From positions 3,286,001 through 3,350,000 of the forward strand of contig OZ004581.1 in assembly GCA_963924555.1 (NCBI GenBank): DNA of 64,000 bases. The letters run 5' to 3'. Position numbers and translations under genes: made by a program. Of the stretch, positions 3,289-60,809 are shown piece after piece. The notes under the pieces are model-generated. The model had not been told where the DNA came from. It ran no database searches and saw only the letters and a list, made by a program, of their open reading frames with translations. The stretch's first letter is position 1. Every line of letters begins with the position of its first letter. This DNA is from Crambe crambe (lineage: Eukaryota; Porifera; Demospongiae; Poecilosclerida; Crambeidae).

Positions 3289-4887
3289 AGAGAATTTCAG
3301 GGCCTTGTGCACTGGTGAGAAGGGATTTGGCTTCAAAAGCTCCAGCTTTCATCGTGTGATCCCTGGTTTCATGTGCCAAGGCGGAGACTTCACCAAAGGC
3401 AATGGAACTGGAGGAAAATCCATTTATGGTGAAAAGTACGTATGTACTATTTACATCTGCCTATACAAGATGAGCTTTAATAAATCCCACCTCCCCAATT
3501 TACAGATTTGCAGACGAGAACTTCCAGCTTAAGCACACTGGACCTGGTATTCTCTCCATGGCCAATGCTGGACCCAATACTAATGGCTCTCAGTTCTTTA
3601 TCTGCACTGCCAAGACTGCATGGTAATAAATAATAACCAAGCAACTGTGGTCAACCTCTCACATTTTGACCAAGGGATCTGATTTAGGGATAGCAAGTGC
3701 CTTGTGGCTAGTTTGATCATTAGCCCAATGTGGCCCAAATTTGGTATACGTGCAGGGTTCTCCCCAGGATTTTAAGGCATAGGGGTGGCAGCCACAGGGG
3801 GTGGGTGCGGGAGGCTCCCATGCATAGCGCAGAAGCTGAAATATAGCGAATCCAATAAGGTCCCAGATTAGCTCTATTTTCTATAACAGCTTATTAATCA
3901 CCAAGTCATGTGGATCCATAAGAGGTTTAGAGGCTGAGCTGCACTTACTACTTCCACTATCATCTAACCTTGGTCTGACTACAAAGAATGAGTGGAGATC
4001 TTTAGAGCAACTAGGAGCAATTCTGCAACCTACACTTGTACTAACAATAACAACACCTGCCTTATAAGGAATTGAAACCATGCATGACTAATCTGGTGTG
4101 CTACATCAAGAATAATCAATCTACAAGGCATAGCTGATAGAACTCGGGCATAGCGCCCCGCTATGCCTTAAGATGCCTAGGGAGAACCCTGACGTGATTC
4201 GTATTTGTGGTGGCATAACAATAACTTTAGTTGGTTCCTGTATCACTTGCTTTTTTTGGAAAAAATATATGCACATTATATTTAGTCATTTGGTTCTCCC
4301 TAATGAGATAGCGACTGACACTAGACACCAGTCCACTAGAAATAACTGGTCAGTTTCTTATAAATGGCCAACCAAATTTTAAGTATTACAGGGTACTGTG
4401 AATTGTCTTATTTCTACCTCTGTACTATGCTTGGGGAGAACCCTGTTTATATACAACGCATACATGAATGAAGTTGCATAATTTGCTTTGCTTTTAATAG
4501 AATCGACTAAGTTGGTGGTACGTGTCTGCTCTTGGATTTCCTGCTGCCTGGCTACCTCTCGATCTGTAGTTATCACTCTTCCTGGATTTATCTTTACCTC
4601 GCCACCGTTGTCTATGATCAGCTGTCTTTTGGTTTATCTCCAGGGTAGTCAGCTATCTATTTGCGCATAATATGTACATGAGAATTTGCGCTAAGTTCAT
4701 CTGAAGTTTTATATTCAGAGTTTATTCTTGACCATCAACTTCCTCCTCCAGGTTGGATGGCAAACATGTTGTTTTCGGTAGCATAGTTGAAGGAGATGAT
4801 GTGGTGAAGGCAGTGGAGAGCTATGGGAGTGATAGTGGGAAAACCTCAAAGAAGATCGTGATTGAGGACTGTGGTCAGCTATCATAA
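2118..4887 (+). CDS. PPIF-like: Cyclophilin-type peptidyl-prolyl isomerase, five exons
   Basis: Catalyses proline cis-trans isomerisation in protein folding. Exons by splice consensus: 2118-2303, 2662-2692, 3291-3435, 3506-3622 and 4752-4887; all junction phases agree. The fold is collinear with human [27 protein letters not shown], then [34 protein letters not shown] (catalytic Arg), [23 protein letters not shown] (drug-pocket Trp) and [15 protein letters not shown] at the C terminus. The first 39 residues ([20 protein letters not shown] onward) are rich in Arg, Ser and Leu with almost no acid, like a mitochondrial presequence. A second in-frame ATG at 2235 (MSKPKVYF) would give the cytosolic form. 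The first ATG has a poor context (T at -3) and the second a good one (G at -3). An upstream in-frame TTG is not a likely start. Intron 2 ends in a long (CT)n tract. Confidence 0.93.
3225..3284. repeat. (CT)30 microsatellite forming a polypyrimidine tract
   Basis: About 30 CT units end seven bases before the exon starting at 3291, so the microsatellite is itself the pyrimidine tract of that 3' splice site. Confidence 0.95.
3753..4191. mobile_element. Non-autonomous TIR element (CAGGGTTCTCCC family), 5-bp duplication ACGTG
   Basis: It lies in the last cyclophilin intron. The left end reads CAGGGTTCTCCCCAGG and the right end CCTAGGGAGAACCCTG. ACGTG lies directly on both sides (3748-3752 and 4192-4196). 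Sub-terminal AAGGCATAG and CTATGCCTTAAGATG are also inverted. A relative lies at about 52,190-52,595. There is no transposase ORF. Confidence 0.88.
4288..4443. mobile_element. Related TIR remnant (GGTTCTCCCT / GGGGAGAACCCTG)
   Basis: Inverted GGTTCTCCC and GGGGAGAACC ends lie just downstream of the preceding element and share its terminal word. The flanks do not give a clean duplication, so this may be an older or rearranged copy. Confidence 0.45.
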
Positions 4888-5628
4888 GAGTTGCATCTGA
4901 ACAATATTTCTTGTGTTAGACTTACAGAGTAGAGACATGATTATTATAGATACATGAATTTTCAATTATGTGAGTTTATGTATAATCAAGTTTACTACGC
5001 GATGACATTATGGGTGCACCAGTGTGACCTGTCTTTGATTGTGGTAAATTCTTTTGTATTGCTCGTCTTTTGAAGGTTATGATTTTTTGGTGCTTTGGAT
5101 GTTCCACTGGTTGTAGTGGGTACTGCCAAGCTCCCCATGAAAGCAAGTATGTATTATAATCTTAGAAAGGTGACCCGTGGACTATCACAAAAGTGTCCAA
5201 TTTGGCAAGGAAAAAAAAAAGTGGACCTGGTCCAGTTTTCACTGCCATGAGCTTGACAGGTCCACTTTCTGCAAGGATAAAAGTAGACCAAATCTCAGCG
5301 GGTCCATTTTTGGCAAGGGGAAAAGGTGGTCTAGAAAATCTCGGCAGGAAAAAGCTGCAGGATTACCCCACCCTGATGGCACATTGCCATTGGACTAGTA
5401 CTTAGCATTTTCATATACTTCTTTCCTACCGTCAGCAACTCCTAACTTGAAGACAGAACACCTTCAGTGTGCTGGGACTCAAATACGAAGAGCAGAAGAC
5501 AAGGAAAATTCTCTCGATCTCATAATGCCGCGCCCCGGCCCCGCCCTCGGTATATTGGACATACGTCACTGATGACCCCTTCCATTGTTGAGGTCGCAAG
5601 TGAGGAGGCTGTAAAGAAAGAAGTTGCC
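4888..5628. other. Intergenic; short internal repeat, otherwise nothing
   Basis: Between 5,190 and 5,340 the phrase GTCCA..TTTGGCAAGG recurs two to three times with variation, an old local duplication. A lysine/glutamate-rich frame runs from 5,467 to 5,748, but it overlaps the TATA box of the next gene and resembles no known protein. Confidence 0.45.
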
Positions 5629-5758: not shown

Positions 5759-7945
5759 ATGGCTGAACGAGTGGACGTAGTTGAGAAGAGTGTGGAAGAT
5801 CTTGAGAAGGAGATCACGTGTGCTATTTGTCACGATCACTACACTGAGCCCAAAGTCCTTCCTTGTCTCCATTACTACTGCAAGCAGTGTGTCCACAGGC
5901 TGACCCTGAGGACTGGCCTTGACAAGCCATTCTCTTGCCCAGAGTGTCGTAAAGATACTACTCTCCCCCAAGGCAATGTGGATGAGCTACCAACAGCTTT
6001 CTTTGTCAATCGCATGAAATCAGTGCACTCCAAGCTGGAGCGAGCTCATGGCAAAGTGGAAGCCAAGTGTGAAATGTGTTCCGGGGATAGAGCCAAAGCT
6101 TTCTGTCGACAGTGTACCCAGTTCATCTGTGATGAGTGTGTGAAGCAACATCACAGAATGAAGGTGTTTTTGGGGCACAAGATTGTTTCTCTTGATGAAT
6201 TGAAAGAAGGCACTAAAGAGATCATCATGGAAGAATCACCACTTCAAGTTTGCAAAGAACATGATGAAGCGATGAAGATTTACTGCTTCGATTGTAATTG
6301 TCTCATCTGTCTTTGCTGTACCATTGAAGATCATTCTGGTCACCACCATAAATTTGTCAAGAAATCCGCTCCCGAAATGAAGAAGAAGCTGATCAAGCAG
6401 TTGGACCCCCTCAAAGAAGTTAAGATCGATCTGTCACATGCCGCTGAGGAGATAAAATCGACTAAATGTGACATAAAGTCTCGGGGGAAATCTGTGGCCA
6501 ATGACATCAATGACTCCTTTGATGAACTCCAAAAGATAATTGAAAACCATCGGAAAGAACTGTTGAAAGAGGCCGCATTGAAAGTGAAGGTGAAGTCGGA
6601 GCGTCTCTCTGGCCAAGAAAAGAGTGTGTCCACTTCTTGTGCTGTTGTCCATAGTGTGATCGAATATACTGAACAGTTTGTCGAACATTCTTCTAATGAT
6701 GAGATTATGTGCATGCATGCTGAGATCAAGAGTTGCATAGAGAAAGAGATCGAAGAACATTGCAAAAAAAAGAAAAATCTTAAGCCAGTGGAGGAAGTAG
6801 ACATAGAAGTGGAGGTGAACTGTGCCAAGGACCTGAAGCAGCTGTTAAAGACCAATGCTAAGATAACTGTATGTAATATTGATCCTACAAAATGTACCTT
6901 AACCGGTGAGGGAATGAAAAGTGCTGAGGTCAACAAAGAGTGTGGATTCTCCTTAGCTCCTAACACTGAACAGAAGTGTGCTGTCAACGGCCACTTGAAG
7001 TCATTTTTGAATGGAACCATCATTAAGTGTTGTGTTGATCGAAGAGAAGGCAATGAATATCATATTTCATACACACCCACCACTCGTGGACGTCATGAAC
7101 TAACTATCACCGTGAATGGACAGGAAGTAGCTGGTAGTCCCTTCCCTGTGTTCGTTTCCATTCATCCAAGTAAGCTGGGCAAGCCTGTCAAGATCATCCC
7201 TGGACTGAACTGTCCATCTGGTGTAGCCTTTAACTCCAAGGGAGAGTTGATTGTGTCAGAGCTTTTAGGAGATGTGGTGGTGTTGGATAAGGAGGGGAAA
7301 AGGCTAAGAAGCATCAAACGATCTGATCATAAGTTCGGTAATCCCTCCAGTATAGCTGTTGATAATGAAGATAATATCTATTTCGATGAATGGTGTGGGA
7401 AAAATGTTTACAAGTTTGATAAAAACATGAAAAAAGTCATGCAGAAGCAAACAGAACATGGATGTTGCAGTGGCGTGGCAGTAGTTGAAGGTGAGGTTAT
7501 GGTATCTGGACAAAGAAACCCTGTACTAGAAGTATACAGTACAGAACTGAATTATACCAGGAAAATACGAGGAAACCATAAAGGTTATTTCTATCGTGTA
7601 TCATCTGATGGTCATGGCAAACTGTATGTCAGTGCCACTGGCCACAGTCGTATTCAAGTCCTCAGTAAAGGTGGTGAATTCCTGCATTCATTTGGAATTG
7701 ATGAGAACGGTGTGAATAAGCTTATTGGTCCACGTGGTGTATGTGTGGCTGGTCAGTATGTGTATGTAACTGATCATAGCAAGAACAACATATCGATATT
7801 CACCACTGAAGGGAAATATTTGACTTCATTTGGACAACGTGGTGGCAATGAAGGTGACCTGAAGAGCCCATGGGGAATCTGCATTGATAACGATGGTTTC
7901 TTATATGTCTGTGATTATGCTAACAGAAGACTTCAAATCTTTTAG
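5759..7945 (+). CDS. TRIM-NHL protein (RING, B-boxes, coiled coil, filamin, NHL)
   Basis: A 728-residue single-exon ORF with the full architecture of the TRIM2/3/71 class of RING E3 ubiquitin ligases. RING: C21-x2-C24, C36-x-H38, C41-x2-C44 and C60-x2-C63. B-box 1 runs from about C104 to H140. B-box 2 runs from about C165 to H197 (CKEHDEAMKIYCFDCNCLIC). The coiled-coil region covers about 205-340. A filamin-type immunoglobulin repeat at about 375-470 ends in the typical GSPFPVFV. NHL propeller blades run from 480 to the end, with GPRGVCVAGQYVYVTDHSKN and SPWGICIDNDGFLYVCDYAN as clear examples. The TATA box at 5,629 and AATAAA at 8,026 bracket it. No lesion is visible. TRIM-NHL proteins also act in RNA repression and development, so the exact substrate is unknown. 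A decayed relative lies at 55.8-57.0 kb. Confidence 0.95.
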   Translation: MAERVDVVEKSVEDLEKEITCAICHDHYTEPKVLPCLHYYCKQCVHRLTLRTGLDKPFSCPECRKDTTLPQGNVDELPTAFFVNRMKSVHSKLERAHGKVEAKCEMCSGDRAKAFCRQCTQFICDECVKQHHRMKVFLGHKIVSLDELKEGTKEIIMEESPLQVCKEHDEAMKIYCFDCNCLICLCCTIEDHSGHHHKFVKKSAPEMKKKLIKQLDPLKEVKIDLSHAAEEIKSTKCDIKSRGKSVANDINDSFDELQKIIENHRKELLKEAALKVKVKSERLSGQEKSVSTSCAVVHSVIEYTEQFVEHSSNDEIMCMHAEIKSCIEKEIEEHCKKKKNLKPVEEVDIEVEVNCAKDLKQLLKTNAKITVCNIDPTKCTLTGEGMKSAEVNKECGFSLAPNTEQKCAVNGHLKSFLNGTIIKCCVDRREGNEYHISYTPTTRGRHELTITVNGQEVAGSPFPVFVSIHPSKLGKPVKIIPGLNCPSGVAFNSKGELIVSELLGDVVVLDKEGKRLRSIKRSDHKFGNPSSIAVDNEDNIYFDEWCGKNVYKFDKNMKKVMQKQTEHGCCSGVAVVEGEVMVSGQRNPVLEVYSTELNYTRKIRGNHKGYFYRVSSDGHGKLYVSATGHSRIQVLSKGGEFLHSFGIDENGVNKLIGPRGVCVAGQYVYVTDHSKNNISIFTTEGKYLTSFGQRGGNEGDLKSPWGICIDNDGFLYVCDYANRRLQIF

Positions 7946-8031: not shown

Positions 8032-8039
8032 AATTGTGA

Positions 8040-11110: not shown

Positions 11111-11388
11111 CAGGGTTTCATCTAAGGAGAGAAGAGGGGCGCAGGGGAAGCTTCCCCTGCCAAACAGCTCAACTTCCCCCAGCCCCCCCCCCCCCCCCCC
11201 CCCCCCAAGATATTGCCAAAAGAAAGAATTTTAGGATAAAAAATACTTCTAAGTGTTATTTTAGGATTAAGCATTTTTGGCTTCGCACTCTGTACAGGAG
11301 GGCTCCCGCACCCTCCCTCACCTTGGCCTTTATACGGCTACACGTTCCATGAGCTTCCCCCAAGGTGAAATTCCTAGATGAAACCCTG
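11111..11388. mobile_element. MITE (CAGGGTTTCATCTAGG family), 5-bp duplication CCTAT
   Basis: Left end CAGGGTTTCATCTAAGG, right end CCTAGATGAAACCCTG, flanked directly by CCTAT (11,106-11,110 and 11,389-11,393). The interior holds a poly(C) run near 11,179-11,205 and CCCTC/GAGGG-rich DNA. Block B lacks it at about 30,294. The same family is seen at 20,912-24,181 and, as right-end pieces, at 15,538 and 33,960. Confidence 0.9.
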
Positions 11389-11577: not shown

Positions 11578-12221
11578 GGGAGTTGGTTCCCACAATTTTG
11601 GTGATTTCGAAAATATTTTGTTGAACTTCTAGGCTTCATACTGCCTTCATACATGCCCCTAGAATTTTTTTTTACCACCAAAATGCAGCTTTTTTAAAGA
11701 GCTTTCCAATGGTCTATTCAAAACCCTCCTAAGTCCAACCATGACCGAGATAGCAAAAATATTTTGGAAAATTCTTCAACTGATATCTCAAAATATAACC
11801 CTTCATACTTATTATGTGTTTAATACATGCCAAACACTACACAATGTATGCAGGAAATCAGCTGTGTACATACCACCAAGTGGTGGTCATTCACACTTGA
11901 GTAGCTTCCAACCACATGTTGATACAGCTAATTCCTGCATACATTGTGTAGTGTTTGGCATGTATTAAACACATAATAAGTATGAAGGGTTATAAATGTA
12001 TATATTTTGAGATATCAGTTGAACTATTTTCCAAAATATTTTTGCTATCTCGGTCATGGTTGGACTTAGGGGTTTTTTGAATAGACCATTGGAAAGCTCT
12101 TTAAAAAAGCTACATTTTGGTGGTAAAAAAAAATTCTAGGGGCATGTATGAAGGCGGTATGAAGCCTAGAAGTTCAACAAAAATATTTTCGAAATCACCA
12201 AAATTGTGGGAACCAACTCCC
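11578..12221. mobile_element. 644-bp near-perfect palindrome in a TTAA target
   Basis: Arms of about 280 bp (11,578-11,857 and 11,936-12,221) are almost exact inverted copies around an ~80-bp centre. The ends read GGGAGTTGGTTCCCACAA and its complement. TTAA lies directly on both sides (11,574-11,577 and 12,222-12,225). The paralogous site in block B near 30,470 reads CTTTTTAAGAAAA with no insert, which identifies the target. TTAA duplication is the piggyBac signature, so a foldback MITE moved by a piggyBac-type transposase is likely. It encodes no protein. Confidence 0.92.
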
Positions 12222-13532: not shown

Positions 13533-13658
13533 GCAGCTGCCGTCTTCGACGATCGATCCGGTCCATAATCCAGTCCATTCCATGTGATTAGACACGGCCC
13601 CTAACTCATAGATAATATCTATGCCTATAGCTAAAGCTTGGAGCTACCCGTCATCACT

Positions 13659-15137
13659 ATGATGCGCTTGATGTACTTCATCTGGCTGAACATTTCAGTC
13701 TCTGCTGTGATTATATTGACATGGCGAAGTCACTCGATACTTCCAACATTAGATTTCAGACCAGTTGAACGTAGTGCGAACAAATACAGTCATGATGTGA
13801 CCTTCCCTCCTGTTTACATTTCGCCAACTCGACAGAAGAACAGAGAGAGTGAATTATTATTAAGAGCTAGTAAGTATGGATGGAAACTTTATACTGGAAA
13901 AAAAGCTGGTACTAGTAGTCCCAAATTCGATAATCACATGATAACAGCAAAACTAAATTTCACTCCAAGTAAAAGCATTGCTATTGATGACAGCATTCGT
14001 GAAGGAATTGAACATAGAAGCGTTCCTTTCCAATGTTACCCAGGAGAATACAGCTTCTTTCCTCCACAGTATTGGAAGTTTATCAACCTTCTGGCAGAGT
14101 ATACCAGGAACGAGTCAAAGATGAGCAACAAAAGGGTACTAGCTTGGCACTGTAGATCGGATTATGCATGCGGTGGTATAGGAGACCGTCTTCAAGGAGT
14201 GCTATCTACACTTGCTCTGGCTATTTTCAGTAGAAGAAAATTTGTAATGTACTGGGAAGCTCCTGGTGAGAATCTCTATCTCAGACCAAATATGATTAAC
14301 TGGGATGATAAACAAGCAATAGACAAGATCAAGAAAAGCAAGAAGAATGACAATAATGTACAAAAGCGTAGTGTACGTATTGGCAATCATCCATTTTACT
14401 TCAATGTCGGTCGAAAAACATGGCAAAGTTATTTGAGTACCATACAAGGTGACATTCCAATTGTAGCATTGGCTACTAACATTGAATTGAGTTCATTGTT
14501 GTCTAACTACACAATCGTTGGACAGAAATGGGTTGAAGATGGTCTTAATCGAGCTGGTCTGGTTAATTTATCGAAGGCAGATCTACTCAATCTTCTAGGA
14601 ATAGCCTTCAGGTATTTGTTTGTACTTAAGCCTTCACTTACCAATGAAGTTAAAAGTGCCATGAAAGTATTAGGAATTGATGGCATACCATATGTAGGGC
14701 TCCATTTAAGAACAGGATTTCATGGTTCCCACTCAGTGCGAGATGATCCCAATCTTAAGTGTATAAAAGATAGAACAAAATGGACAAAAGCTCTCCAATG
14801 TGCAGTTGATAGAGCTAATAAGTACACTGGAAACAACAGCTATATATTTCTGGCCACTGATTCTCCTTCAGTTAAGGATTTGGCAGTGTCTAAGTTTGGA
14901 CTGAGATTTCGAACTTTAGATATCGGAGCATTTCATGTTGACAAGATGAACAAACGACCTCATGCTGTTACAAGTAACGAAGATAAAGGAATAATATCCC
15001 TGCTGATAGATGTGATTCTCCTCGCTCAGTCGTACATCTTAGTACATTGGACTAGTGGTTATTCCCACTTAGCTGCAGTTGTCTGTGGCATTCCCAATGA
15101 ACGTAATATTAACAGCATGACTTGTAAACATTATTAG
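13659..15137 (+). CDS. Fucosyltransferase-like type II membrane protein, copy 1
   Basis: Intronless, 492 residues from the ATG at 13,659; the in-frame TTG 21 bases earlier is not a likely start. Residues about 2-22 (MRLMYFIWLNISVSAVIILT) form one membrane anchor next to a short N-terminal tail, the layout of Golgi glycosyltransferases. Residues 163-181 (WHCRSDYACGGIGDRLQGV) and 345-353 (YVGLHLRTG) match the first-half GxGDRLxG motif and the HxRxG donor-binding motif of alpha-1,2/1,6 and O-fucosyltransferases (GT23/GT37/NodZ type). HWTSGYSHLA at 463-472 fits the third conserved motif. Several N-glycosylation sequons (NES, NYT, NLS, NNS) support a lumenal domain. The likely role is transfer of fucose from GDP-fucose to glycans; the acceptor is unknown. 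I count about 21 differences from copy 3. Confidence 0.85.
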   Translation: MMRLMYFIWLNISVSAVIILTWRSHSILPTLDFRPVERSANKYSHDVTFPPVYISPTRQKNRESELLLRASKYGWKLYTGKKAGTSSPKFDNHMITAKLNFTPSKSIAIDDSIREGIEHRSVPFQCYPGEYSFFPPQYWKFINLLAEYTRNESKMSNKRVLAWHCRSDYACGGIGDRLQGVLSTLALAIFSRRKFVMYWEAPGENLYLRPNMINWDDKQAIDKIKKSKKNDNNVQKRSVRIGNHPFYFNVGRKTWQSYLSTIQGDIPIVALATNIELSSLLSNYTIVGQKWVEDGLNRAGLVNLSKADLLNLLGIAFRYLFVLKPSLTNEVKSAMKVLGIDGIPYVGLHLRTGFHGSHSVRDDPNLKCIKDRTKWTKALQCAVDRANKYTGNNSYIFLATDSPSVKDLAVSKFGLRFRTLDIGAFHVDKMNKRPHAVTSNEDKGIISLLIDVILLAQSYILVHWTSGYSHLAAVVCGIPNERNINSMTCKHY

Positions 15138-16477: not shown

Positions 16478-18830
16478 TTGGCGACGAGGATGGGAAAACA
16501 GTGTGCAGTATAAACACTTTCATTTTTTCAGTGTATAATATAGGGTTGCTTAACCTGTGTTTGGATACGGGGTTAAGACACTTACACCAATTTTCAGGAG
16601 ATCTCATCTACTTCTTCCTATTATGTTTTTAGCTATAGCTAGCTAGCTAGCTACTTTTATCTTATCTAAGACAGGTGTTGACCAGGAAAATAATATTTTA
16701 AAGAAGATGAACTGGAAGTTTCGATGTGTAATGCCCAGGAAGAAGGCCCATAGCAACCGGTCAGGCTAGTCACTTTTAGGGTTAAGTTAACCTTTGACCC
16801 CTAAGTAAGCATAAAATTAATTTCCCCCTATTATTATGCTATTCTCAAATTCTCAAGCACACTGTCCATAATGTTTTGATATCTACCTAGCTACCCAAAT
16901 ATTGGTAATTTCTTCTTTCTCAAGGTCTGATGGAGCAGGACCTTTCAATGCACAGCAAAGGGTGCATGGTTGTGTAGCAGATAATATTGGCATGGATGAC
17001 CAAGCATGGAGTAGCTAGATCCCAGAATGACTGGTGAATTCATACCAAGGGAGAGATGGGATGCCATATACAAAGCACCCAAGAGTGAAAGTATACATTG
17101 CGCTTTGAAGCTAGCTAAATACATGGCATCTTCCAGTGATAGCTACATTCCACTCAGTTAACTTTGGACTGTTTGACTGTTAGCTTTGAACTGCATTCTG
17201 ATTGTATACAATGAAAGAATATGCGAGGATGCTGTTTACAAGTTACATTATGCTTATGCCCCACTATACAGAGGGTGCACAAGAAGTCCATGTTGTGTCA
17301 ATCTCAAAGCCCTATAGCTAAGAGATTGAGCACCAACGTTGTGATGCTGACAATTTGAAAGACCATTATTATGTACATGCATGCTAGCTTCTATCCCAGT
17401 CCAGAGGTTCCATGGAGGTGGAGGTTAACACTGGCATGCAGAAATATGAGAAAAGCTTACAAAATACCCTGAAATTTTGTTCAATGAATTGTCATAGCTA
17501 GCTAATTACAAAGAAAATAAGTGAGTGCAAAAATTTATAGATAAAAGTGTTGACTGCAGCATCTTATCAAACCAAGCCGTGTGAGATGATAAATGATCAT
17601 AGATAACTTTAAGGACAACAGTAGCTATAAAGATAAACCAAACAAGTAGGCAGATTTGGAAGTCATTAGCTGGAGTCAGAGTTAGGGTTAACTTCCAAAA
17701 TGAAGGTGCTACAGCTGTTCTGTGCCTGAGTTGTGTGATGACACATTGTGGCATGCGCATTAACAGCTGCTGAAGGGCAATATGTAAAACATTAATTTGA
17801 TAGTAAGCGAGTGTGCAAGTAGCTATAGCTAGCTAAAGTCCTATAGCTTTTACTTTTAGTTCAACTCCTTAGATACACTTTGGAGATATATGAGCCAGCT
17901 CACTTGCTGAATATTTCATCAGGATAGCTACTTGCTTTATTAATATACAAGCATATAATGCCATGAGAGCACATCTTATGGCAAGTTCTCAAAACCATAG
18001 ACAGAGGAGTAGCTATAAGATTTATGATTTGGTGGGGCTAAAAAATTAATTTGACCTACCATGCCCTTTTGCTGATCACACCCATTTTTCAGTCATACTA
18101 AACAGCTTTGTTTCCATGAAATTTTACTGGGGCAAGTGCAGTTGCCCTAATGGTAGCTACTCCTCTGAGAGACCATTTAATATCACAAAGCACTTAGATA
18201 TACGTAGCTAGCCTATACCATACAACTGTCAACTGACAAAGCTTCACCCTTGAACCGGTAATAAACAAGTTGGTAGACAGGAAACAATGATAAGTAAAGC
18301 TATTAAAATAATGGTATTGTCTGCAGGTTTGGAGTAGCGAACTTGCCCAACATGCCCAGGATCATGCTGATTCATGTAGACTTATAGAGAATCCACTTAG
18401 GACGTTCCAACAGTCCACATTCTCCTACGTCGGTGAAACCACCATAGCTAGTAGAGAACCTACATAAGCACTTAGGTAACACATTTTTCAATCAATACGT
18501 TTACTACAACTATCAAGAGAACTCCTGCAGTTATTTTGATATATGTAGCCAATACACTCAGGTAAGGTGCATGTTAGCTATCAACTTAATGTACCATTGC
18601 AATTATGTAATTACTACACTATAGCTAGAGATAATAGATCCAGCTATATTTTTTATCTTGCTCAGTGTATACTCAGGTATTGATCAAATAGTTGCATATA
18701 GCTATAGCTATTACACCGCATGCATGGTTGCTGTTTAGTGCGCATTGTATAATCATGGAAGGTTGGCCTCATCCCCAGGCGATTTCATACGCTATTATTA
18801 ATTGCACGTGGAATCGCCTGGGGACGAGGC
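16478..18830. other. Non-coding end of block A and unique spacer
   Basis: Up to about 17,080 it matches block B (34,600-35,690, with an extra ~600 bases in B). From there to 18,830 I see no gene, only AT-rich DNA with many TAGCTAGC words, one small TIR element at 18,002-18,167 and a hairpin at 18,765-18,826 (CCTCATCCCCAGGCGATT / AATCGCCTGGGGACGAGG). Confidence 0.5.
18002..18167. mobile_element. Small TIR element (CAGAGGAGTAGC ends)
   Basis: Left CAGAGGAGTAGC, right GCTACTCCTCTG; flanks ATAGA and AGAGA agree at four of five positions, compatible with an eroded 5-bp duplication. Confidence 0.6.
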
Positions 18831-20088: not shown

Positions 20089-20381
20089 CAGTGGCATAGG
20101 AAAAGATGGTTTTGAATGGGGGGGCCACTTAAGTTTTAAGTTAAGATCACACTTATTTTACTGGGGGGGTGGGTTGGCACTACCTACTAATTTCAAACTC
20201 CAAAGTAATTTATTCATCGTTCAATTGACATTCAGTCCTAGTACAGTACTTCTTAATTTGACGAAGGGAAGAAAAAGAGCGTTCTGCTGTGGTAGCTATG
20301 TATAGCAATTATGCAATTAATAATAGCTGAACATAGGGGGGCCCTGCCCCCTGTCTGAAAATCCTTGTTCCTACGCCAGTG
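20089..20381. mobile_element. MITE with hAT-type ends, 5-bp duplication CATTC
   Basis: Left CAGTGGCATAGGAA, right TTCCTACGCCAGTG. CATTC directly precedes and follows (20,084-20,088 and 20,382-20,386). Its ends resemble those of the nearby hAT transposon (CAGTGGCGTA). It sits at the centre of the large inverted repeat. Confidence 0.88.
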
Positions 20382-20988
20382 CATTCAGCAGGTGCTGATT
20401 CCACTGGTGGTATTGAATCTGGCTTATATTCAGAGTGAAGGGTCAAATTACCATTTTTTGCCATCTGAATAATTATTGATTACCCATGCAAAGGTGCCTT
20501 AAGTTCAGGTTTGTATTGCAGTGGTATTTGAAGCTTGACTTCTAGCTATAAAAGTGTGGAGAGACAGATAGGGGAAGGATGAAACTTCTTGCTTTGATAT
20601 AAATTGGTGGCTGTCTGAAATATGATACTTATGTCTGATTATAGATTTTTTCGGACACCTGCTTTAAAATCTATAGCTACGAATTAACAGCCATGACTGA
20701 ACTGAATCAGTTTTCAATGGGCTATCTTTGATACCTAGATCAAAGTTACTAGCTAGTAGCCATAAACCAGATGCCTGGAAAAGTGTCTGACAATCGATCC
20801 CTTAATAGTGACAAAAGTATCATAATTATTTCAGCTACCAGTTTATGGCAGAGTTTTCTAGGTATGATAGTCAAAGTTGGAAGACAGGAAGTTCTATCCT
20901 GTGTCTCCATTCAGGGTTTCATCTAGGAATATCACCTTGGAGGGGAAGCTCATGGAATGTGTGGCCATAGCCATGGTGGGGGATGTGC

Positions 20989-23900
20989 CAGTGGCGTATC
21001 TAGAAATTGAGAAGGTGGGTGCTCGCGCGCGTAGCGCGCGCGAAATTTTTCGACCACGCCCCCTTTAATTAACCTCGCCCCTTATTATGTATGATAGTGA
21101 TGCTCTCTAGCTCTAATATCCCCTTGACTTCTGTAAGTTTATTTTGCTTGCTAGAGGATCAGCTTGATAGGTTGAATAAATAGCTAGCTATAAGCTATAG
21201 GAAGCAAGCCACTGGAAGTAGCTAGCTTTGCTCACTTGTGCTCTAATTGGAATTGTTTGACATACTGGTATGGAACTACTTTAGTGGTTTGAATGATAAA
21301 GTTATATTAATTTATTGTAGGTACAGATGCAGCAGGGGTGACCATGTATGTTAATCAGCCAAAATGTTAGACATTTGTAGTCTCCTGGGATGACGTCGAG
21401 CAAATTGATCGATAACTTCAGGGATATCTACAGAAATATCACGGTGGAGGTGAAGAAGAGTCAATCCTGTCAATCGCTCAGTTATCATTGAAGAACGAAG
21501 GGCATTCTTTATTCTCTTCAATGCACTAAATGATCGCTCTGCTGAACAACTTGTGACTGGCAAGGTACACAGAATATTGACCAAAGCTCTAACATTTGGG
21601 TACATCGAAGACGAATGCCGCAGAGTAGTTGTTGGGGTAGAAGGTAGGCTGATCTGTCCGTGCTCACTGAATTGCTTCTGCCATTTCATCTTCCAACAGT
21701 GTAGTTCACTTCCAATGCAATCATGAGATGGAAGATCTTGCTGGTACATATCAGCAAGCTGACAGATTTTGGTGTTACACTCATCTGCATCTGTTGAAGG
21801 ATCTACCAAGATTGATGGTATCAATGACAAACCAAGCAAAGCAGTTTGCTGGTGTATGCTGAAGCGTGACTCCATCTCTAAGAGTAGGTGATCGAGAAGT
21901 GGAACAGATATACAACGGCGGTAGTAATCGGATGGAGTATCACCAGAAACATTGCTGCGGTAAATTTGGCGGCCACATCGCCGAGGCAAAGATGCTTCCA
22001 TGCCAATACCATTACATATCTCCTTCACAGTATCAAACCACTGACAATGGTATGTATCAATCTTGTCTCTAGCATTCTGCAAGGCAGCTTTGACACTGTT
22101 GATCTCCTTCACAGCCTCTATAATATCCTTAGCCTCTGCTTGAAGATTGGAGGTCAAGGCTTGCAGGTACTTGAGGCATGAATTGGTGATGACTAAAGCA
22201 CAGATGAAATCAGTAGTGGTGATAGCCAACTGTAGACTTCTGGCATCAGTGAGAGAATCTGATGACCATAATCCAGAACCATCACTACAAATGCTTTCCA
22301 TACAAGCTACAATTGAAGGGTGAAGATGTTGAAAAATGTTCAGTGCATCAATGCGTTGGATCCATCTGGTACGGCAAAGGTCCTTCAACTTTGAAACAGT
22401 TGAATCTGGCTGATTATCAGTTATGGCTTTCTCAAGAGCCCGTTGCCGTTTTGGATGAGCACCAAAGAAAACTGAAACCCTATCCACCACACCCATCATG
22501 TTACGGATGCTGGTAACCTGCAGGGACTTTACGACAGCAAGATTGAGAGAGTGAGAAGCACAGTGAAGATATAAGGCAAGTGGATATTGTGCAGTGATAA
22601 GAGCTGCGGTGCCCCTAACTGAACCAGCCATGTTTCCTGCACCATCGTAAGCCTGACCCCTTAACTTAGAAAGATCTAAGCCAAAGCTCTGCAGAGAGTG
22701 GATAATCTTGTCAGCCAAGCAGCGTCCAGTTATTCCAGTGTCACATTCCAAGAAAGAAACTAAATCTTCCCTGACTAAGAGGGTATCGGGATCCACATAC
22801 CTCAATACAATACTCAACTGTTCCTTATTGGACAAATCAGTCACTTCATCAGATATCACAGTAAACCATTGGGCTGCCTTCACTTTATTGAGAATTTTCT
22901 CTCTGATATGCCCTCCAAGAATATCTATCAATTGATTTTGGATATTTGAAGATGTGTATGTGGCATTTCGGGGAGCAGTGGCAAGATGCTCACCTAAGAT
23001 TTCATCTCCTGCCTCAATTCTAAACTTCAAAAGAGCCCAAAAGTTGCCATAATTCTCTGAGGTGTCTCTCTCCAGATCAGTAGCATTGTCACGATGGCCA
23101 CGTAGTGCAATATTCTGTCGTCCACACAGAAGTATAGTCTTCACAATTGAGGCAAGCTTGAGACGATTAGAACTGATTGTGTCTGCCAGAGCTTGGTTGA
23201 TCCGATGACGAATACTTGGCTGCTGATTCTTCATCACTTGAAGAAACTCATCTGCTCTAACAACTGCTGTTTTATGATAGTCTTTGGCTTTATGTTTATG
23301 AAACAACTCTAATGCCTTGGGGAATGATATTAAAGGACGTCGTACAAGAATGCCTGGATCTGACCTGTGATATCCACAAGAAGCAAAGAGAACACATGGA
23401 AGACAATACCCACCATTCTCCTGCTTACTGTAAACAAGCCAAGGATATAGTTGCAACCAACGATATTGGAAAGCTCGCCCACTGACACTCTTGGGAAACT
23501 TATAGTCCACTCCTGGCTTGAAATGGTTAGTAAGTAGTTGATACTTACTATCAGCAGGAATAGAAGCACCAATATAACTTGCCACGTCATCACACAGTGT
23601 CAGAGGGACTCGTTTGGCAGCAGGTGGAATGCAGCTCTCATCAACAGATCTGGATTCATCAATGTCGTCAACAGACTCAGAATCACTGGGTTTATCTGAT
23701 TCTTCCAAGCTGACAAGTGAAGAGGACTCACCTGCTGTACTGGCTGGAGCTTCTTCTGCATCAGATACTGGTATCTGCTTCTGAAAGAACTTGAGAAGTG
23801 ACATTTCTTGATCAACTAACTAGCCCAATGAAAAAAAATTACACGAAGAATTAATTGAAAAAAACAACGTGACACAAGTGCATGCGCGGTATAATGATTG

Positions 23901-24061
23901 AACTCGAACTCTGAACCCAGCTAGCTAAAGTATACGAGCTAAGTACGTAGTAGCGGTCCAGACAGCCAGGGATTAGAGCTAAGTAAGAGTAAGTATTACA
24001 TAGCGGTCCAGAGCCAGGGGGGTGCTTGAGCACCCTGAGCACCTCGCTAAATACGCCACTG
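20989..24061 (-). mobile_element. hAT DNA transposon, apparently intact, 5-bp duplication TGTGC
   Basis: A 3.07-kb element with inverted ends CAGTGGCGTATCTAG (left) and CTAAATACGCCACTG (right). TGTGC lies immediately outside both ends (20,984-20,988 and 24,062-24,066). Comparison with the unbroken phrase GGATGTGCCCCCTCCC implied by the MITE family supports these borders. It carries one uninterrupted transposase gene on the minus strand. Short GCGCGCG palindromes follow the left end. The usual hAT duplication is 8 bp, so 5 bp is notable. Confidence 0.9.
21351..23804 (-). CDS. hAT-family transposase (ZMYM1-like, TTF zinc finger)
   Basis: An 817-residue single ORF. It starts at an ATG giving MSLLKFFQKQIPVSDAEEAP, then an acidic linker to about residue 60. 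A TTF-type zinc-binding region follows at about 110-185 (QYRWLQLYPWLVY, YCLPCVLF, FHKHKAKDYHKTA), then a DUF4371-like RNase H-fold core with catalytic-type Asp at about 319 (VISDEVTDLSNKEQ) and 387 (YDGAGNMAG). The C terminus has the hAT dimerisation motif (SAERSFSALKRIKNALRSSM, about 745-790). No internal lesion is seen and the ORF lies wholly within the inverted ends, so the element may be autonomous. Such proteins cut and paste DNA bearing matching ends. Domesticated relatives exist in animals, but the TIRs and target duplication argue that this one is a transposon. Confidence 0.93.
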   Translation of the reverse strand: MSLLKFFQKQIPVSDAEEAPASTAGESSSLVSLEESDKPSDSESVDDIDESRSVDESCIPPAAKRVPLTLCDDVASYIGASIPADSKYQLLTNHFKPGVDYKFPKSVSGRAFQYRWLQLYPWLVYSKQENGGYCLPCVLFASCGYHRSDPGILVRRPLISFPKALELFHKHKAKDYHKTAVVRADEFLQVMKNQQPSIRHRINQALADTISSNRLKLASIVKTILLCGRQNIALRGHRDNATDLERDTSENYGNFWALLKFRIEAGDEILGEHLATAPRNATYTSSNIQNQLIDILGGHIREKILNKVKAAQWFTVISDEVTDLSNKEQLSIVLRYVDPDTLLVREDLVSFLECDTGITGRCLADKIIHSLQSFGLDLSKLRGQAYDGAGNMAGSVRGTAALITAQYPLALYLHCASHSLNLAVVKSLQVTSIRNMMGVVDRVSVFFGAHPKRQRALEKAITDNQPDSTVSKLKDLCRTRWIQRIDALNIFQHLHPSIVACMESICSDGSGLWSSDSLTDARSLQLAITTTDFICALVITNSCLKYLQALTSNLQAEAKDIIEAVKEINSVKAALQNARDKIDTYHCQWFDTVKEICNGIGMEASLPRRCGRQIYRSNVSGDTPSDYYRRCISVPLLDHLLLEMESRFSIHQQTALLGLSLIPSILVDPSTDADECNTKICQLADMYQQDLPSHDCIGSELHCWKMKWQKQFSEHGQISLPSTPTTTLRHSSSMYPNVRALVNILCTLPVTSCSAERSFSALKRIKNALRSSMITERLTGLTLLHLHRDISVDIPEVIDQFARRHPRRLQMSNILAD

Positions 24062-24186
24062 TGTGCCCCCTCCCGCGCAGACCGTGAAGCCCAAAAATGC
24101 TGGGGGGGGGGGGGGGGGGGGGGAAGTTGAGCTCTTTGGAGGGGAAGCTTCCCCTGCACCCCCTCCTTAGATGAAACCCTGCCATT

Positions 24187-45512: not shown

Positions 45513-47532
45513 TTAACTACTTATTTTAGGGTTCAGGAGCTTCTTTAAGCTGATGGGGTCAGTGATGGGAGCTGTGCAGGTGTAGTTCTCACATACATAA
45601 GCAGTGGCTTTCCCCTCATTTTTGTCAACAGTTGATAGGACTTCAATGTGTTGAGACAAGAACCGGTTGGACGTTGTGTCAGACTTGTCGTGGTGTATGA
45701 GGATCTTGTTGGGGAGGAAGAAAGAGTTGACCACGTCAAGGAGAGCCCGTGTGTCCTCTGCAGTCGGTTCTCCTGTAATGATTATCTACAAACAGCATGA
45801 ATAATGATCATGACAGCATAGTAAAAACTGAAGTGCAAACCTACAGTTTGATTAAAAGTCCACAAAAATATTAGCCCACAAAAAAATTTCTTGCATATGC
45901 AGTTAGCATAGTTGCAAACCACTTTAACCACAAATATTTTTAAATTTCCCACCATACAGTAGAAGTAATGTTAGTAATGTAATATAACAATAATCAGATG
46001 TGGTTATTTTTATTATGTCTTGTGGTTTTGTCCTCAGTATTTATGATGGGACAGGATAGGTCCTTGTAAGCCACTACCTATTTCTCATTCCTTACTGACA
46101 ACCAACGTACATACCCAAACAGGGTTTCATACAGGATCTATGCACATACCCAAATAGGTTTGTTTTGTTTTTTTTGTTCTGTTTTTTTGTTATTGTTTTT
46201 TACTGGAAAGGGGAATCGCTGGCAAATTATTATTACATATTATTACATATTATATTACATTATTATATATATTACATATTATTATTAGAATGACATCATA
46301 TCTATGAATGATTTTCTGACCTGTTTTGGAGTTTGAGAGTGAAAGATGAAGGCAGACAGCATTTCTGGTAGAGCTATAGGATGCTGACTCAACATCTCTC
46401 CAAACGTCTTTATGATATCGATAGGAGCGGGCTCTGCCACTTTGCCAGGAAGATAGGCAGAGAGGCGCAGAAGATTCAGGGCGGAGTAGGAATTAGGACT
46501 AGGCTCAGCTCCATCTTGATCTAGATAAGTATGTACGTGATGACTGAAATTCAGGATTATATTTGTACAGGGAATCTTGCAAAATGCCGAGTGTGCATTC
46601 TTGTACATGCTCAACTTTGAGCCTCGAAAATTTCACCAGAGAAGGTGAATGGCATGCTAATAGGTTAGAACTATACTAGAACAGTCACTAGCTAGCTCTT
46701 CAAAGCTTATTTCACTAAAGTTCTTTCCAAATCTGAGTGTAATTTCAAAATTTAAGCTGTTTTATCAGCAGCAAGTTAGTTTGCTGGAACATTTAGTAAA
46801 GAAAACAGTAGCAGAAACAGTTGTAATAACACGGCCGGAGGCACTGCTATGGCTGGTACAGCCATGGCCATACCACCATTCAGAGTGTGTGTGTGTGTAT
46901 GTGTGTGTATGCAATTTAAATAATAATATTGACTTATAAGTTAGTACATGGCATTGCCTGGATCATACCAGATTGAAATTGATATTGAACTTACTGGAGG
47001 GAATTCCCCAGACCCTCCAGATGGAAGCTATGGCTGTACCACTATAATTAAGGTGGCTCCGGCTCTGAATAATATTTTTTTTTTTGTTACCACCACCAAG
47101 TATGTAGGTGGCTACTCTAATTCAGCAGTTTAAACAAAGGAACTCAAGAGTTGACATCAATACCTCCATATCTGCTAACCCCTGAAAGTAAAAATTTCCT
47201 ATTATGCCAGTATTGTGCTGGCATTAAGGTCCAACCCATTATGCCCAAAACTATGCCAGCATAATTTGCATGTCCCTAGTGCATATAATTATAGTCAGTT
47301 TACGGATGATGCCTGATGATTATTTTTTGCAAGATTCCCTAAAACCACAGCATACATCCTTCTATAATGCCAAAGGCACGACATTAATTTTTATTGCAGT
47401 GTAGGGCCAATCAGGGTTTAATTCAGAATTTTGCTCGAGGGGGATCAAATGCCTAGTGAAAAAAATTGAGGAGGGGCAACTACAAACCAGTACATGTATA
47501 TGATAATCTCATTATGAAAGCTAGCTAATTCC

Positions 47533-47564
<32 letters not shown>

Positions 47565-50500
47565 AGCCATCATTCAGAGGGGGCAGAAGCCCCCCCCTCG
47601 CCCCCCCTTGAAATAAACCCTGCCAATTATAGCAAATCACACTTGACCTGACATTTAGCTAACGGCAGAGTACTGAATTTGCAAACACCTGATGTACTTG
47701 GTGTGACCAACAGGGAAATTTAATAGGACCGAACATTTAGTCCTATTGAGAGAGGTGTCTCATCACTGCCATAATGTGTGCACTACATAGGTTGCTGCTT
47801 AGAAAAGCTGTACAACGAAATCCATTATGCTTAATGTTCACATCAACTACACTACACTATTTACCATTCCTGACTACATGACACATTCCTTCCTTGCTAT
47901 GTGTATAATATAAAGGGAGTCTTGATTTTTGAATCACTCACTCATTAGGCCACTATTTTGTTGATCATAAGTTTCTCATCAGATGGTTTTGCTCAGACTG
48001 ATGCGGTTGGGTGGCATATATAAGCCATTATGTCATTATTTTGATAGTTATTTTTTGGAAAAACCACAGGAGTTGATACAGTCAGAAGTGATGCAGACAT
48101 GCAGTATAGAAATCCAATTATAATGGCTAAATCCTGTAGGTAGAGTAAACTAACGTGGGTGGGGGATGAGAAACTTGTAATCAACCAATAGTGGCTTTAT
48201 GTACGTAGCTACACATAAAGTAAATCAGGGAAATTTTGGTTAGCTAGATAAGTAATTAAATTTCATATCATTTGTTGAACATGACCACGAAAATAAATCA
48301 ACATAGAAAATTCCCAAATCTACCATTAATTATGCAGTTATGTAGGATCTATGTAATGTACCTTCTTTCAAACGCAGTAAGATACTCGGGTCTTTTGCAG
48401 TGGTACTGAAGAATCCTCCATTGTCCTTGTCCCAGAAGAGTTCAGTCATCTTTTGCTGGAGCTGCCACGCCCACTCAAGCCACGCTTCTTGCTGGCTAGC
48501 CTCAAAGAGATCCAACAGTCCCCCGATGAGGAATGCATAGTCATCAGCAAAACCATCAACAGAGCCTGCCACCAGATCCCTATGCATAGTCATATGGATT
48601 ACTTGGCTACATAGTCCTGGTAAGGGGTTGTTCATACACAAAGCAAATAGGAATGAAGGTTTTTGCATTACTGGATTCATGGAGTTCACTTTCTACGCAT
48701 ATAGAAAAAAGATTTCAAGCACTTTAGCTTATGTAAGATCTTTTTCTGCACAAATGTATGAATGTAATACATTGTGGGGCAAACCTGATGATCCAGATCG
48801 ATGTGATTAGATGTTAGTTGTGCATGATTGCTTCAGTTTGCCGTATGCATATTGAAAAGTTGAATGGACTGATGTTATTTAAGTGACCTTTAATTTGCCT
48901 TGTAGAAGACTTTTTACCACATGCCTAGCACCTTTGCTCAAGTCAGAAAAACAACAACAACAACAAAAAACAACAACAATATCTAGTGGAGTGACCCTTT
49001 ACCCATTGCTGTCTCTGTAGGCATTCCTTATGAGCGTCCCCTTTTCGTCATCATATAACTGACACTTGATGAAAAAGGCAATCTTCTCAGCCTTTTCAAG
49101 GTAATCCACCTGCTTCAACACCACTGAAGCTCTAGCAAACCCGGACATCATCAGTCCTGCATGCAAAATCAATACAAGGACATTATGTAATGGTACACGC
49201 TCTAGACATTATCAGTCCTGCACATGCATGATATCAATACATGGACATATGTTGGTAATTCTAATGGTGCACACTCTAGCCATCATAAGTCCTGCACATG
49301 AAATCAATGCAAGGACATATGGTGCACACTCTAGACATTATCAGTCCTGCACACACATGATATCAATGCATGGACATAATTATATGGTAGTAATTCTAAT
49401 GGTGCACACTTGGGAGGGGGGGCAGTCATGCACACACTAAATCAATGCATGGATGTAAGTGTGATTTGTGATTGGAGAAAAAAACAACAGTTCCTTGTAC
49501 ATGAAGTACGCAATTAAGTGCTTAAAAGCCAACCACAACACTCCTACATACCAACTAGAAATCTTAGCTATCAGCGATAATTACATTTTAAAATGGTAAG
49601 CTGCCAGAAATTAAATGCAATACGTAGTAATATGAGTACATACGTAGCTCTAACTTCATTGAAAAAAAGAGAACTTACACACTCTTTTTTTCCTGATAAA
49701 TTTTACCCTCCCCACTGAAATTTGCACCATAAATTAAAGAATTTATAAGTTTGTACGTAGCTAACCGTTCCATGCAGTGAGTATTTTATCATCCCTGTGA
49801 GGCTTTGGTCGATGCTGTCGCTGCTCAAACAACTTCTCTCTGCCCTGCTTCAGCAGTGCTGCTACCCTGCCCTCCTCCATCTGGAAGAATTCTGCCGTTT
49901 TAGCAACAGACCCTCGAACTATCAGTACGTTCTGATCCGAGAGCTCTTTGTGGGGATCCTGAGGAAGAACATGTAAAAGAGAAGATATGATTCGATCAGA
50001 AAGGGAGCAGAACAGTTTTTATGTCGATTGAATTATACCATAACTTGGTGAGATTTCATTCTCGTGTGTCATGTTGAAAATTAATCACAGAATATTACCG
50101 TGTTGTAAAAACCAATTAAAGCTGCAACAATGAATTATTATTACCTCAATTTAGTACCCCATTAATTGACAGAACTGATTGAAACCTAGTGCAAATGGGG
50201 GCTATGTACTATGTTACATTATGTACTCTGAATTTGGACATAAAAGTCTATTTGGATTCACCTTGCCCCTTGATCATTCACTATGACTGCTATAACTTTC
50301 TCGATTCTTTACCAAATTTCAAATTTTGAACACCAGCAGAGAGAGTGAATAATCAGCTCTCTGTTGGAATGGGTTGAACCCACTACGATATCAAGAGGTG
50401 GGTTGGATCCAGACCAGATTAGTAACATGTCTAATCCGGGTGCAATAGACCAGACTGAATCCAATTAAAACAGGGCTATAGAGAATACTATGTACAAAAT

Positions 50501-57912: not shown

Positions 57913-60809
57913 GTATGTACGTAGCTAGTAAACTGTAGTTTCATTCAAGTTAGCTAAATAAATTTAAGTAAACCTGTTTTATAGATAGAGACTTGGCTTA
58001 TCTTTATTAACTATTGTTGGTATAGCTAGTAGAAATTGGGACAAAGGGATTTCAAAAGACAACTTTAAATCTGTTCAAATGTAGATACTCTTAGTACTCT
58101 CAATGCATGGGGTTCCTCATGGAAGGATTTACCTCGGTGATCATTTACATCATCCCGAGGACTTTAATTCCATGAGGAAACCCATTGAGGGTGTCTTACG
58201 TACTTGGTTAGAAAATGTAGAAGTTTTTTCAATGAAATATGTTCTTATTGCCTGTGGTGAGGTGTTGATCAGGATTTTACAAGTGGAAATGAACAAGAGG
58301 TCAAGGGGGTGTAAAAGTACCTTGATTGTAATTAAAATATCTCTATAACTAAAAGCAAGTACCTATAGCTATAGAGGAATAAATTATTATGGTTCTATTT
58401 TTTCGTGTGCTCACAGCTCAGAATCAAGGAAACAGGAAGTAAAGGGGTGTGCATCGCATTTCTATAGGGAATAGAGTAGAAAAACAAGAACGGTTAAAGG
58501 ATAAAATTATGTCAATAGGAAATTCTGTTGCAGTAACCGAATTCAATCCTTGATTGTCCTTTGGTTCACCACAAGTGAGGTAATTCATTGCCTGCTCTGA
58601 TTTTAATTTGATTTCTAGACACATAATTATATACCTGTTATGTTGGCTTCACAGTGGGGATTGAACTCTTTGAGCTCTTATAGTTTTTGATATCGTAGGA
58701 TGTGGATAAAATGTTGCTATGCATGCACTGTGAATGTGTTTTGGGGTTTATCAGTGAAGATGAGCTGCTAGTTAGAAACAATCTTTCTGATGCACAATAA
58801 AATTGATGTCCTAGTATACTATGGTTTCTATCTATTAGCTATTACATTATAGAAGCCAGAATCACAGTTGTATTATTGCTAGCTATAAGTATACCTTTAT
58901 CTGTCTTGTAATAATAAGTGTTAAGAAACGAGACATGTCACTGTTATAGCTACTTAGGTAATTCACTTCCTGTTCTAGTGATTTCTTTTTACATAGTCCC
59001 CACCACTACGTAACTGACCTGAACTAAAATTGAACTTGGGTATGTGCATGCTATGGGAGGGAAGAAATTTTTGTGAAAAAATGTAAGCAGACTAGACCAC
59101 CTGGAAGACCAAAGAAGTTGAAGAAAGGAAATCATAGCAGTAGCTACCATGAAAGTGACTGCTGTGTAAGTGATGATTTGAAGTGGGAAGTGGGTAGCCC
59201 CAAATTAGTCTCGCGAGCCAGCCCACTTATTTTTTTCGCTGGCTCGTGAGACTAGCCCCAAATGTTGTAGCTAGCATGTAGGCAGGTTATTCAGCTGGTC
59301 TACAGCGAGCTGGTGTTTTGTGCGCTGCTTTCTTTGATCTTCTGACTGGGCAGACACGAAATAATTATACTTGTATCCCTCGCAGGATATAACTAGGATC
59401 TTTAATAGAGTAGCTATTCTATCACTATAGCACTCAAAAGAAAGGAAATTTCCCCGGTGCCATTTATATTTCCATAATGGTTTTGTAGTTCTTGTACTAA
59501 ATCTATGAGTCTCACGTTCATGTATATATTAATGGCTGACAATAATTAAGGAACCCCTTCTTTAAAATGAAATAAAAGTTAAGCTACACTGTAAAAATGA
59601 CTGTGATCATGATCATAGGCGTAGGAAGCAATTTCACTTTGGGGGGGCTAGATTTTGAACTTTGTAGTGGACTGCATGGCTGTTAGGCCACGACGAGGGG
59701 GAGGGTGCAGGAGTCCCGCGTGGAGCACGAAGCAAAATTTTAACTACTTCTTCGAGGCTAGATTTTTGATTTGCACCATCATAAAAATCAATATTTCCAT
59801 AGTATTGCTGATTAGCTAGAAATATTGGGGGCCTCAGCCCCCCCTGGTTCCTACGCCTATGATGATTACTATAAATAACAATAGCTTCTATAGCTATATA
59901 CGTGAATATTCACTAAAAATTAAAGAAAAAGCTAGGGGGTTCCATATTCCTGAGGGGGTGCAACAGTGTATTTGGCTCAGTGATGCGAAGTATTTTACTT
60001 GGGGGTGCCAAAAGTAATATGGGTTATGGGCATGAGGAGATAACTGCATAGTGGGAAATATCTTACTTTTTGTATATTGTGATGGCATGTGCATATGCAT
60101 ATGCCTGAGCATGCGCATACTGACCTTTGAACCGTGATTCATTGGTAAAGGGTTGACACTGTACATATGTACGTGCACGTGGGCGCACGTGCAGCGCGCG
60201 CACATGGCTATCTCCTGCCTGCAGTGAAGATGTTAGTGGCAAACCTGGTGTAACCTTACTCATCTGAAAGTAAGAATTAGCTACTGGGCAATGGTGCTTT
60301 TGTATGATAGCTTTTCACCACATGATCCCTTGTAAAACTAAGGTGAGACAAGTGAACTTGTTTTTAATCGAATACACGTTATGATCCTGTATGCTGCTCG
60401 GGTAGATCACAGAGTAGTGGGTCCAAAGAACAAAACTGGTGACAGTACAGCCTTGGAGGATGCTGCGCTGCAGTGTACACGGCTCTGATATTTGCCCACC
60501 AATCCTGAGTCTACATTCTGGGCCAGAATACCATGAGCAAAGCAACCTTCATGTTCAGCCACAGTGTGGAATTGTTGGCTGAGCATGAAGGTGACACTTG
60601 TGTGCCCTCCAGTAGGATCAGATCATAATGTGCACGCCCAGTCTAAGAATAATAGTAATAGAGAAGAAGAAGAAAAATCTAGCAACTTGCTTTGCTGTAT
60701 TTCTGGAACAGTTGGTTCCCTGGTCCTGAAACTGTATGCTCTAGTTAGTAATAGGCAGGATAATCATTCACTGTAGCTTTTGTAAAGTCCAAGTGGAGAA
60801 ACTGGAATT

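Follow-up and report, generated by a model that had tools for sequence, protein, structure and literature searches.

Transposons of the hAT superfamily usually, though not universally, duplicate 8 bp of target DNA upon insertion. Exceptions published as hAT5 (5 bp; a label attributed in PMC12730594 to Kapitonov and Jurka 2007, Repbase Reports 7:1188-1191, with the 5-bp trait also described in PMC9004415), hAT6 (6 bp; attributed in PMC12730594 to Kapitonov and Jurka 2007, Repbase Reports 7:1192-1204) and hAT7 (7 bp) stand beside this norm. Elements with the 8-bp pattern include BuT2 and the Tip group, where BuT2 carries a DUF4371 region and a hAT dimerisation domain and 8-bp duplications are reported (PMC3942097), as well as Hermes, for which an 8-bp target with the preference nTnnnnAn is described (PMC10368747). 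Here we analyze a 64,000-nucleotide stretch of the genome of the sponge Crambe crambe (bases 3,286,001-3,350,000 of contig 1, hereafter the window) in which the usual hAT duplication is replaced by one of 5 bp, in all eight of the window elements and in 29 of 30 further copies from the same genome. We place at about 0.93 the probability that the window elements belong to the hAT5 type of cut-and-paste hAT transposons, inserted with a 5-bp spacing that appears to be loosely held.

Direct reading of the sequence revealed CA...TG ends and exact flanking 5-mers at all eight insertions, as the first-pass annotation of this DNA had claimed, save that the last element ends at 59,861 rather than 59,862. 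The eight insertions display seven end-types, as those at 11,111-11,388 and 20,912-24,181 have common CAGGGTTTCATC ends. A ninth candidate, previously noted at 18,002 with flanks agreeing at four of five positions, was recovered as such. The features are as follows, with coordinates given within the window:

3753..4191, non-autonomous element with CAGGGTTCTCCC ends, target duplication ACGTG, of the end family of transposase loci L028 and L040
11111..11388, non-autonomous element with CAGGGTTTCATC ends, target duplication CCTAT
18002..18167, probable older element with CAGAGGAGTAGC ends, flanks ATAGA/AGAGA (four of five positions alike)
20089..20381, non-autonomous element with imperfect CAGTGGCATAGG/CACTGGCGTAGG ends, target duplication CATTC
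20912..24181, CAGGGTTTCATC element, target duplication CCATT, broken by the transposase-encoding element at 20989..24061
20989..24061, minus strand, transposase-encoding hAT element with CAGTGGCGTAT ends, target duplication TGTGC, nested within 20912..24181
21351..23804, minus strand, open reading frame of the 817-aa transposase, with DUF4371 and Dimer_Tnp_hAT and hAT-type D, D, RW and E motif residues
35860..36549, non-autonomous element with CATAGGCGGAGGAA ends, target duplication CATAC
47412..47622, non-autonomous element with CAGGGTTTAATT/CAGGGTTTATTT ends, target duplication CCAAT
59614..59861, non-autonomous element of the CATAGGC family with CATAGGCGTAGGAA ends, target duplication ATGAT

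We scanned the window for CA...TG pairs at separations of 80-6,000 bp, requiring the first 6 bases to pair and no fewer than 11 matches over 16 bases of the terminal inverted repeat (TIR). An exact 5-bp flank was present in 10 of the 1,069 pairs recovered, against about one expected, and seven of these 10 are insertions listed above; the 20,089 element lies outside the filter because of a mismatch at TIR base 3 (CAG versus CAC). As the list of eight was hand-picked, further copies were selected by homology alone, with the flanks unused. Three window elements (the CAGGGTTCTCCC, CAGGGTTTCATC and CATAGGC elements) served as DNA queries against the whole genome (143 Mb, 119 contigs), with the best 40 of 73, 40 of 353 and 40 of 44 candidates scored, respectively, and copies that aligned with the query over its full length were taken in order of match quality. 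This yielded all nine other full-length CAGGGTTCTCCC copies listed, 11 of the 24 others listed for CAGGGTTTCATC, and 10 of the 18 others listed for CATAGGC, the last read at both ends only. Exact 5-bp duplications flank 29 of the 30 copies over the three families (binomial p ~1.5e-86), comprising all nine CAGGGTTCTCCC copies, all 11 CAGGGTTTCATC copies and nine of the 10 CATAGGC copies, with the remaining CATAGGC copy (L067/L068) having flanks without a duplication. Comparison of the CATAGGC flanks as 8-mers gives four to seven mismatches in all ten, while in the combined CAGGGTTTCATC and CAGGGTTCTCCC sample of 20 a single copy (L054), sited in ATATATA, fits 7 bp as well as 5 bp. The earlier judgement that eight exact 5-mers are implausible by chance is borne out by both the scan and the further copies, and the genome-wide histogram of flank lengths proposed with it, run on this 30-copy sample, falls at 5 bp in 29 cases and speaks against 8 bp.

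Empty sites provide a view of the same borders before insertion. Removing the 20,989-24,061 insert and one TGTGC from its CAGGGTTTCATC host leaves GGGGGATGTGCCCCCTCC, and an uninterrupted copy (L057) reads identically, such that TGTGC lies on both sides of the insert in the interrupted copy and occurs once in the empty site. The first-pass annotation had named empty sites in related genomes with other borders, or 8-bp duplications once the TIR ends are redefined, as evidence that would refute it; the empty site here holds a single TGTGC. The other four copies compared at this site (L058, L059, L062 and the window copy at 11,111) are variable near it. An empty paralogue of the 20,912-24,181 insertion, within 31,081-31,240, is clean, reading GTCTCCATTTAT with CCATT once, and paralogues without the 11,111-11,388 insertion (at ~30,181-30,425) and without the 20,089-20,381 insertion (at ~24,231-24,470, reverse) are less telling, each carrying a small deletion where the insertion would lie. 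Three similar tandem open frames, the middle one short, occupy window positions 13638-15137, 27744-28553 and 31721-33199; the duplicated blocks around them are the source of the paralogous stretches that lack some insertions, and the one frame scanned matched alpha-1,6-fucosyltransferase weakly and below threshold.

The first-pass annotation was also correct in assigning a full hAT transposase to one window element. The uninterrupted 817-aa frame matches Pfam DUF4371 (2e-21) and Dimer_Tnp_hAT (PF05699, 4.6e-9, above the curated cut-off for this domain), and thereby resembles BuT2; DUF4371 is a recognised hAT transposase region. In 14 relatives from the same genome, residues D319, D323, D387, C415, H418, R480 and W481 do not vary and E756 hardly does, and judged from alignment and model the hAT active-site set of D (D319 or D323), D387 and E, together with the RW motif, appears to be present. 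A profile of the 14 relatives finds four Hermes sequences (E 1e-7 to 9e-5), the matches lying around the RW motif and the E motif near the C-terminus; its fifth match (E 0.11) is an unrelated protein. When an AlphaFold model (mean pLDDT 79.7, with the first 69 residues below 50) was searched with Foldseek, the five matches with E of at most 0.001 were all Hermes chains (PDB 4d1q, 6dww, 8edg, 8sjd). The predicted fold is similar to that of Hermes over ~570 alignment columns including the RW and C-terminal E motifs; in contrast, identity to Hermes in the structural alignment is 13-16%, and the window protein has DUF4371 and gave no BED domain match in the Pfam scan. In the mechanism we propose, a hAT transposase with a DUF4371 region would cut the element out at its CA...TG ends and the two ends would be joined to target strands 5 bp apart, so that gap repair would leave a 5-bp duplication, and short elements whose ends are identical or alike would be moved by the same or sister enzymes. 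The spacing itself is presumably set by the enzyme.

The bases chosen as targets are consistent with such a geometry. Across 57 distinct 5-bp targets, pooled over families and drawn in part from loci at which knowledge of the repeat had guided the choice of ends, A or C at position 1 or G or T at position 5 accounts for 81 of 114 places (p 8e-6), G at position 2 or C at position 4 for only 9 of 114, and the symmetry of base preference is highest (22.8) at the middle of the 5 bp among 14 centres scored. Two symmetric strand transfers separated by 5 bp would be expected to leave such a preference.

Companion status by common ends and subterminal sequence is shown for only one short-element family, that of the 3,753-4,191 element, both end regions of which match the L028 and L040 loci at 70-80% identity. 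For the CATAGGC family, CATAGGCGT ends bracket a Dimer_Tnp_hAT match with a 115-aa open frame (C3:508,376-511,034), and ends similar to CATAGGCGT occur at L037, at L038 and on the left of L027; the putative companion status of this family rests on that one locus, with its short hAT open frame, and on TIR likeness. The two end forms of CAGGGTTTCATC occur in 248 and 123 exact copies in the genome, and by-eye comparison of 100 of the 248 and 100 of the 123 end matches with hAT matches led us to claim no partner. One CAGGGTTTCATC end lying ~4 kb upstream of a hAT match on C1 (3,081,309) was set aside, with no matching right end among the matches listed. Mobilisation of the remaining short-element families is presumably also by hAT enzymes. 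The initial proposal of a 5-bp hAT lineage with passenger families is supported, with qualifications: the 5-bp flanks and one family sharing ends with L028/L040 are upheld, while 5 bp is not strict and the CAGGGTTTCATC and CAGGGTTTAATT partners were not found.

To place these elements within the genome, we collected its hAT transposases. From a Dimer_Tnp_hAT profile search (best 150 of 280 candidates scored) we took 26 of the 150 hits, all with open frames of at least 463 aa; a protein search added L030 and L036, and with the window there are 29 distinct transposase loci. Paired ends bounded by an exact repeat were assigned at 25 of them:

5 bp, 14 loci: window, L013-L017, L020, L024-L026, L028, L036-L038
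6 bp, five loci: L018, L022, L040, L041, L042
8 bp, six loci in four families: L009-L011 (three copies of one family), L012, L019, L039

Other TIR pairs with different flanking repeats were seen at L036:172-506, L005:1929-2380, L013:267-1532 and L014:206-1451 and are possible internal controls, with lengths that depend on end placement (TAGTCTGGC, 9 bp; TACGGTGGCC, 6 or 8 bp; GGGTGTCTTG, 9 or 11 bp).

Several observations count against assigning the window elements to a 5-bp hAT group. Only one copy of the window transposase was found among the best 55 of 557 candidates scored, the next matches being 61-64% identical over parts, and its own duplication length therefore rests on one insertion plus relatives; its superposition on Hermes is loose (rmsd 7.6-8.8, target TM 0.59-0.62), and its catalysis is predicted from motifs and fold. 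A second high symmetry score of 16.3 falls at another centre, all such scores being without a shuffle control. No partner gene was found for end-types CAGGGTTTCATC and CAGGGTTTAATT, and the CATAGGC locus with the hAT match on C3 agrees at only four of five flank bases. Four of the 29 transposase loci (L021, L023, L027 and L030; L030 in one scan only) gave no end pair. Pfam identifies DUF4371 in L040 and L018, below threshold in L039 (8 bp) and not at all in L041 and L042, and DUF4371 alone is thus not a predictor of length. Lastly, the ends of the transposase loci were picked with the flanking repeat in the scores or lists, and the rows are not independent, which led us to seek independent copies of the L042, L041 and L018 families.

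These copies revealed both stability and mixture. All three further copies of the L042 family are exact at 6 bp, giving four of four with L042 itself. Among six further L041-family copies, three are exact at 6 bp, two are exact at 5 bp and one, the internally rearranged L101/L102, has flanks without a duplication, so that with L041 included the family shows 6 bp in four, 5 bp in two and none in one. In the L018 family, two of three further copies fit 6 bp at five of six positions and the third is exact at 5 bp. The CAGGGTTCTCCC end family is similarly divided, as L028 is flanked by AAGAT (5 bp) and L040 by ATATAG (6 bp), with transposases that are near-twins (end branches of 0.016 and 0.018 for the 463-aa piece compared). 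The wider group does not keep strictly to 5 bp, and 6 bp and 5/6 mixtures occur in it.

Phylogenetic analysis of the transposases found lineages of mostly 5 bp around the window protein. A starred set of ten rows, six of them at 5 bp and two without an assigned length, contains the 6-bp L018 and L022, and the 8-bp L039 forms a pair with the 6-bp L042 at a support of 91/98. A single 5-bp clade was rejected by the approximately unbiased (AU) test with L040 kept (p 2e-56), a result dominated by the L028/L040 pair, and the test was therefore rerun without L040, again with rejection (p 0.0004). Uniting all 5- and 6-bp rows in one clade gave AU p 0.042, or 0.054 without L040, with long branches present, values that neither clearly reject such a clade nor favor it. 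Deep joins are unsure because several branches are very long, and the very long L019 row shifts beside L015/L020 in a repeat tree, a placement we do not trust. Duplication length is not a clean lineage marker in this genome.

The window elements nonetheless fall under the hAT5 definition of a hAT transposase with a 5-bp duplication, a group reported from invertebrates and fish; the label is the one that the first-pass annotation had suggested, and it is published according to PMC12730594. The likeness is one of transposase type and duplication length, and the 5-bp elements here form no clean clade. Likewise, the 6 bp of the L042 family, and the prevailing 6 bp of the L041 and L018 families, recall hAT6, although the 6-bp lineages here are nested among or mixed with 5-bp ones. 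As hAT5, hAT6 and hAT7 are already published, the finding is a new, well-populated member set of the hAT5 kind. No description of a 5/6 mixture within one hAT family appeared among the papers listed by literature searches, which is not proof of absence, and this looseness within families is the part that may be new.

Two alternatives challenge the assignment itself. Since 8 bp is usual in hATs and occurs at six hAT loci of four families in this same genome (L009-L011, L012, L019 and L039), the elements could be ordinary 8-bp hATs with mis-set ends, five of eight duplicated bases being seen as the flank. We give this almost no credence: all copies have a common CA start, the flanks of the CAGGGTTCTCCC and CAGGGTTTCATC copies differ from copy to copy right up to that CA, the 8-mers of the ten CATAGGC copies disagree as described, and the empty site carries the 5-mer once. 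For the tested families, the flanks of further copies and the empty site rule out resetting the ends to reach 8 bp. It is also very improbable that some short elements are not hATs and come from the CMCT group (CACTA, Chapaev, Transib and kin), a different CA...TG superfamily the lineages of which are described as having mostly CA...TG ends and 2-5 bp duplications (PMC12730594). The missing transposase partners for CAGGGTTTCATC and CAGGGTTTAATT would suit such an origin; however, the hAT transposases of L028 and L040 lie between CAGGGTTCTCCC ends, the Dimer_Tnp_hAT match on C3 between CATAGGCGT ends, and hAT open frames between CAGTGGCG, CAGGGGCG and CAGGGCCG ends. Where a transposase was found it is hAT by Pfam, and a CMCT assignment is unsupported there, no CMCT profile search having been made.

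With the hAT5 assignment favored, the origin of the 5/6 mixtures is the more finely balanced question. The distance between the two target cuts seems to move readily from 5 to 6 and back. The mixtures could come, in place of enzyme slippage, from cross-mobilisation, in which one end family is moved by transposases of the 5-bp or the 6-bp kind, or from flanks that mutated after insertion: the ends of the L041 family vary (CAGGGG, CATGGG, CATGAG), both kinds of transposase exist in the genome, and two copies of the L018 family need one mismatch to fit 6 bp. We regard this as possible though rather unlikely. The near-twins L028 and L040 both carry transposase and are exact at 5 and exact at 6, the L018-family copies hold the transposase region at full length or interrupted, and the short L041-family elements L103/L104 and L105/L106 show 6 and 5 with the same visible ends. 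An exact 5-mer by chance is expected at ~1 in 1,024. We lean, by a narrow preference, toward a single hAT branch with a loosely set strand-attack spacing, in which one enzyme would generate duplications of 5 as well as 6 bp, with a bias that differs from family to family and would have flipped more than once (for example, in the mostly 6-bp L018 lineage nested among 5-bp ones). By analogy with retroviral integrases, for which duplications of 4 to 6 bp among genera are reported (PMC3790719), the shift between 5 and 6 would likely be caused by a small change of active-site spacing on the target.

The window also contains other features. A single open frame at 38773-39987 encodes an Indoleamine 2,3-dioxygenase (Pfam IDO, 2e-113) and another at 5759-7945 a TRIM-like protein with RING, B-boxes, a filamin repeat and NHL repeats; both proteins appear to be of animal type. 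A long GA/TC simple repeat at 637-1204 generates spurious long open frames in several frames, a large palindrome at 11616-12182 has 192-nt arms that are 94% complementary and separated by 183 nt, and an Rfam search of the window gave no match.

Duplication length serves as a near-fixed superfamily label for transposons, and here hATs of 5, 6 and 8 bp reside side by side in one genome, including near-twins of 5 versus 6. Annotation built on an 8-bp expectation will overlook or discard genuine short hAT elements. As natural relatives differ in length, the determinants of strand-transfer spacing could be mapped by comparing them. If the spacing is indeed loosely set within one branch, hAT5 and hAT6 would be two settings of one adjustable transpososome, not two lineages.

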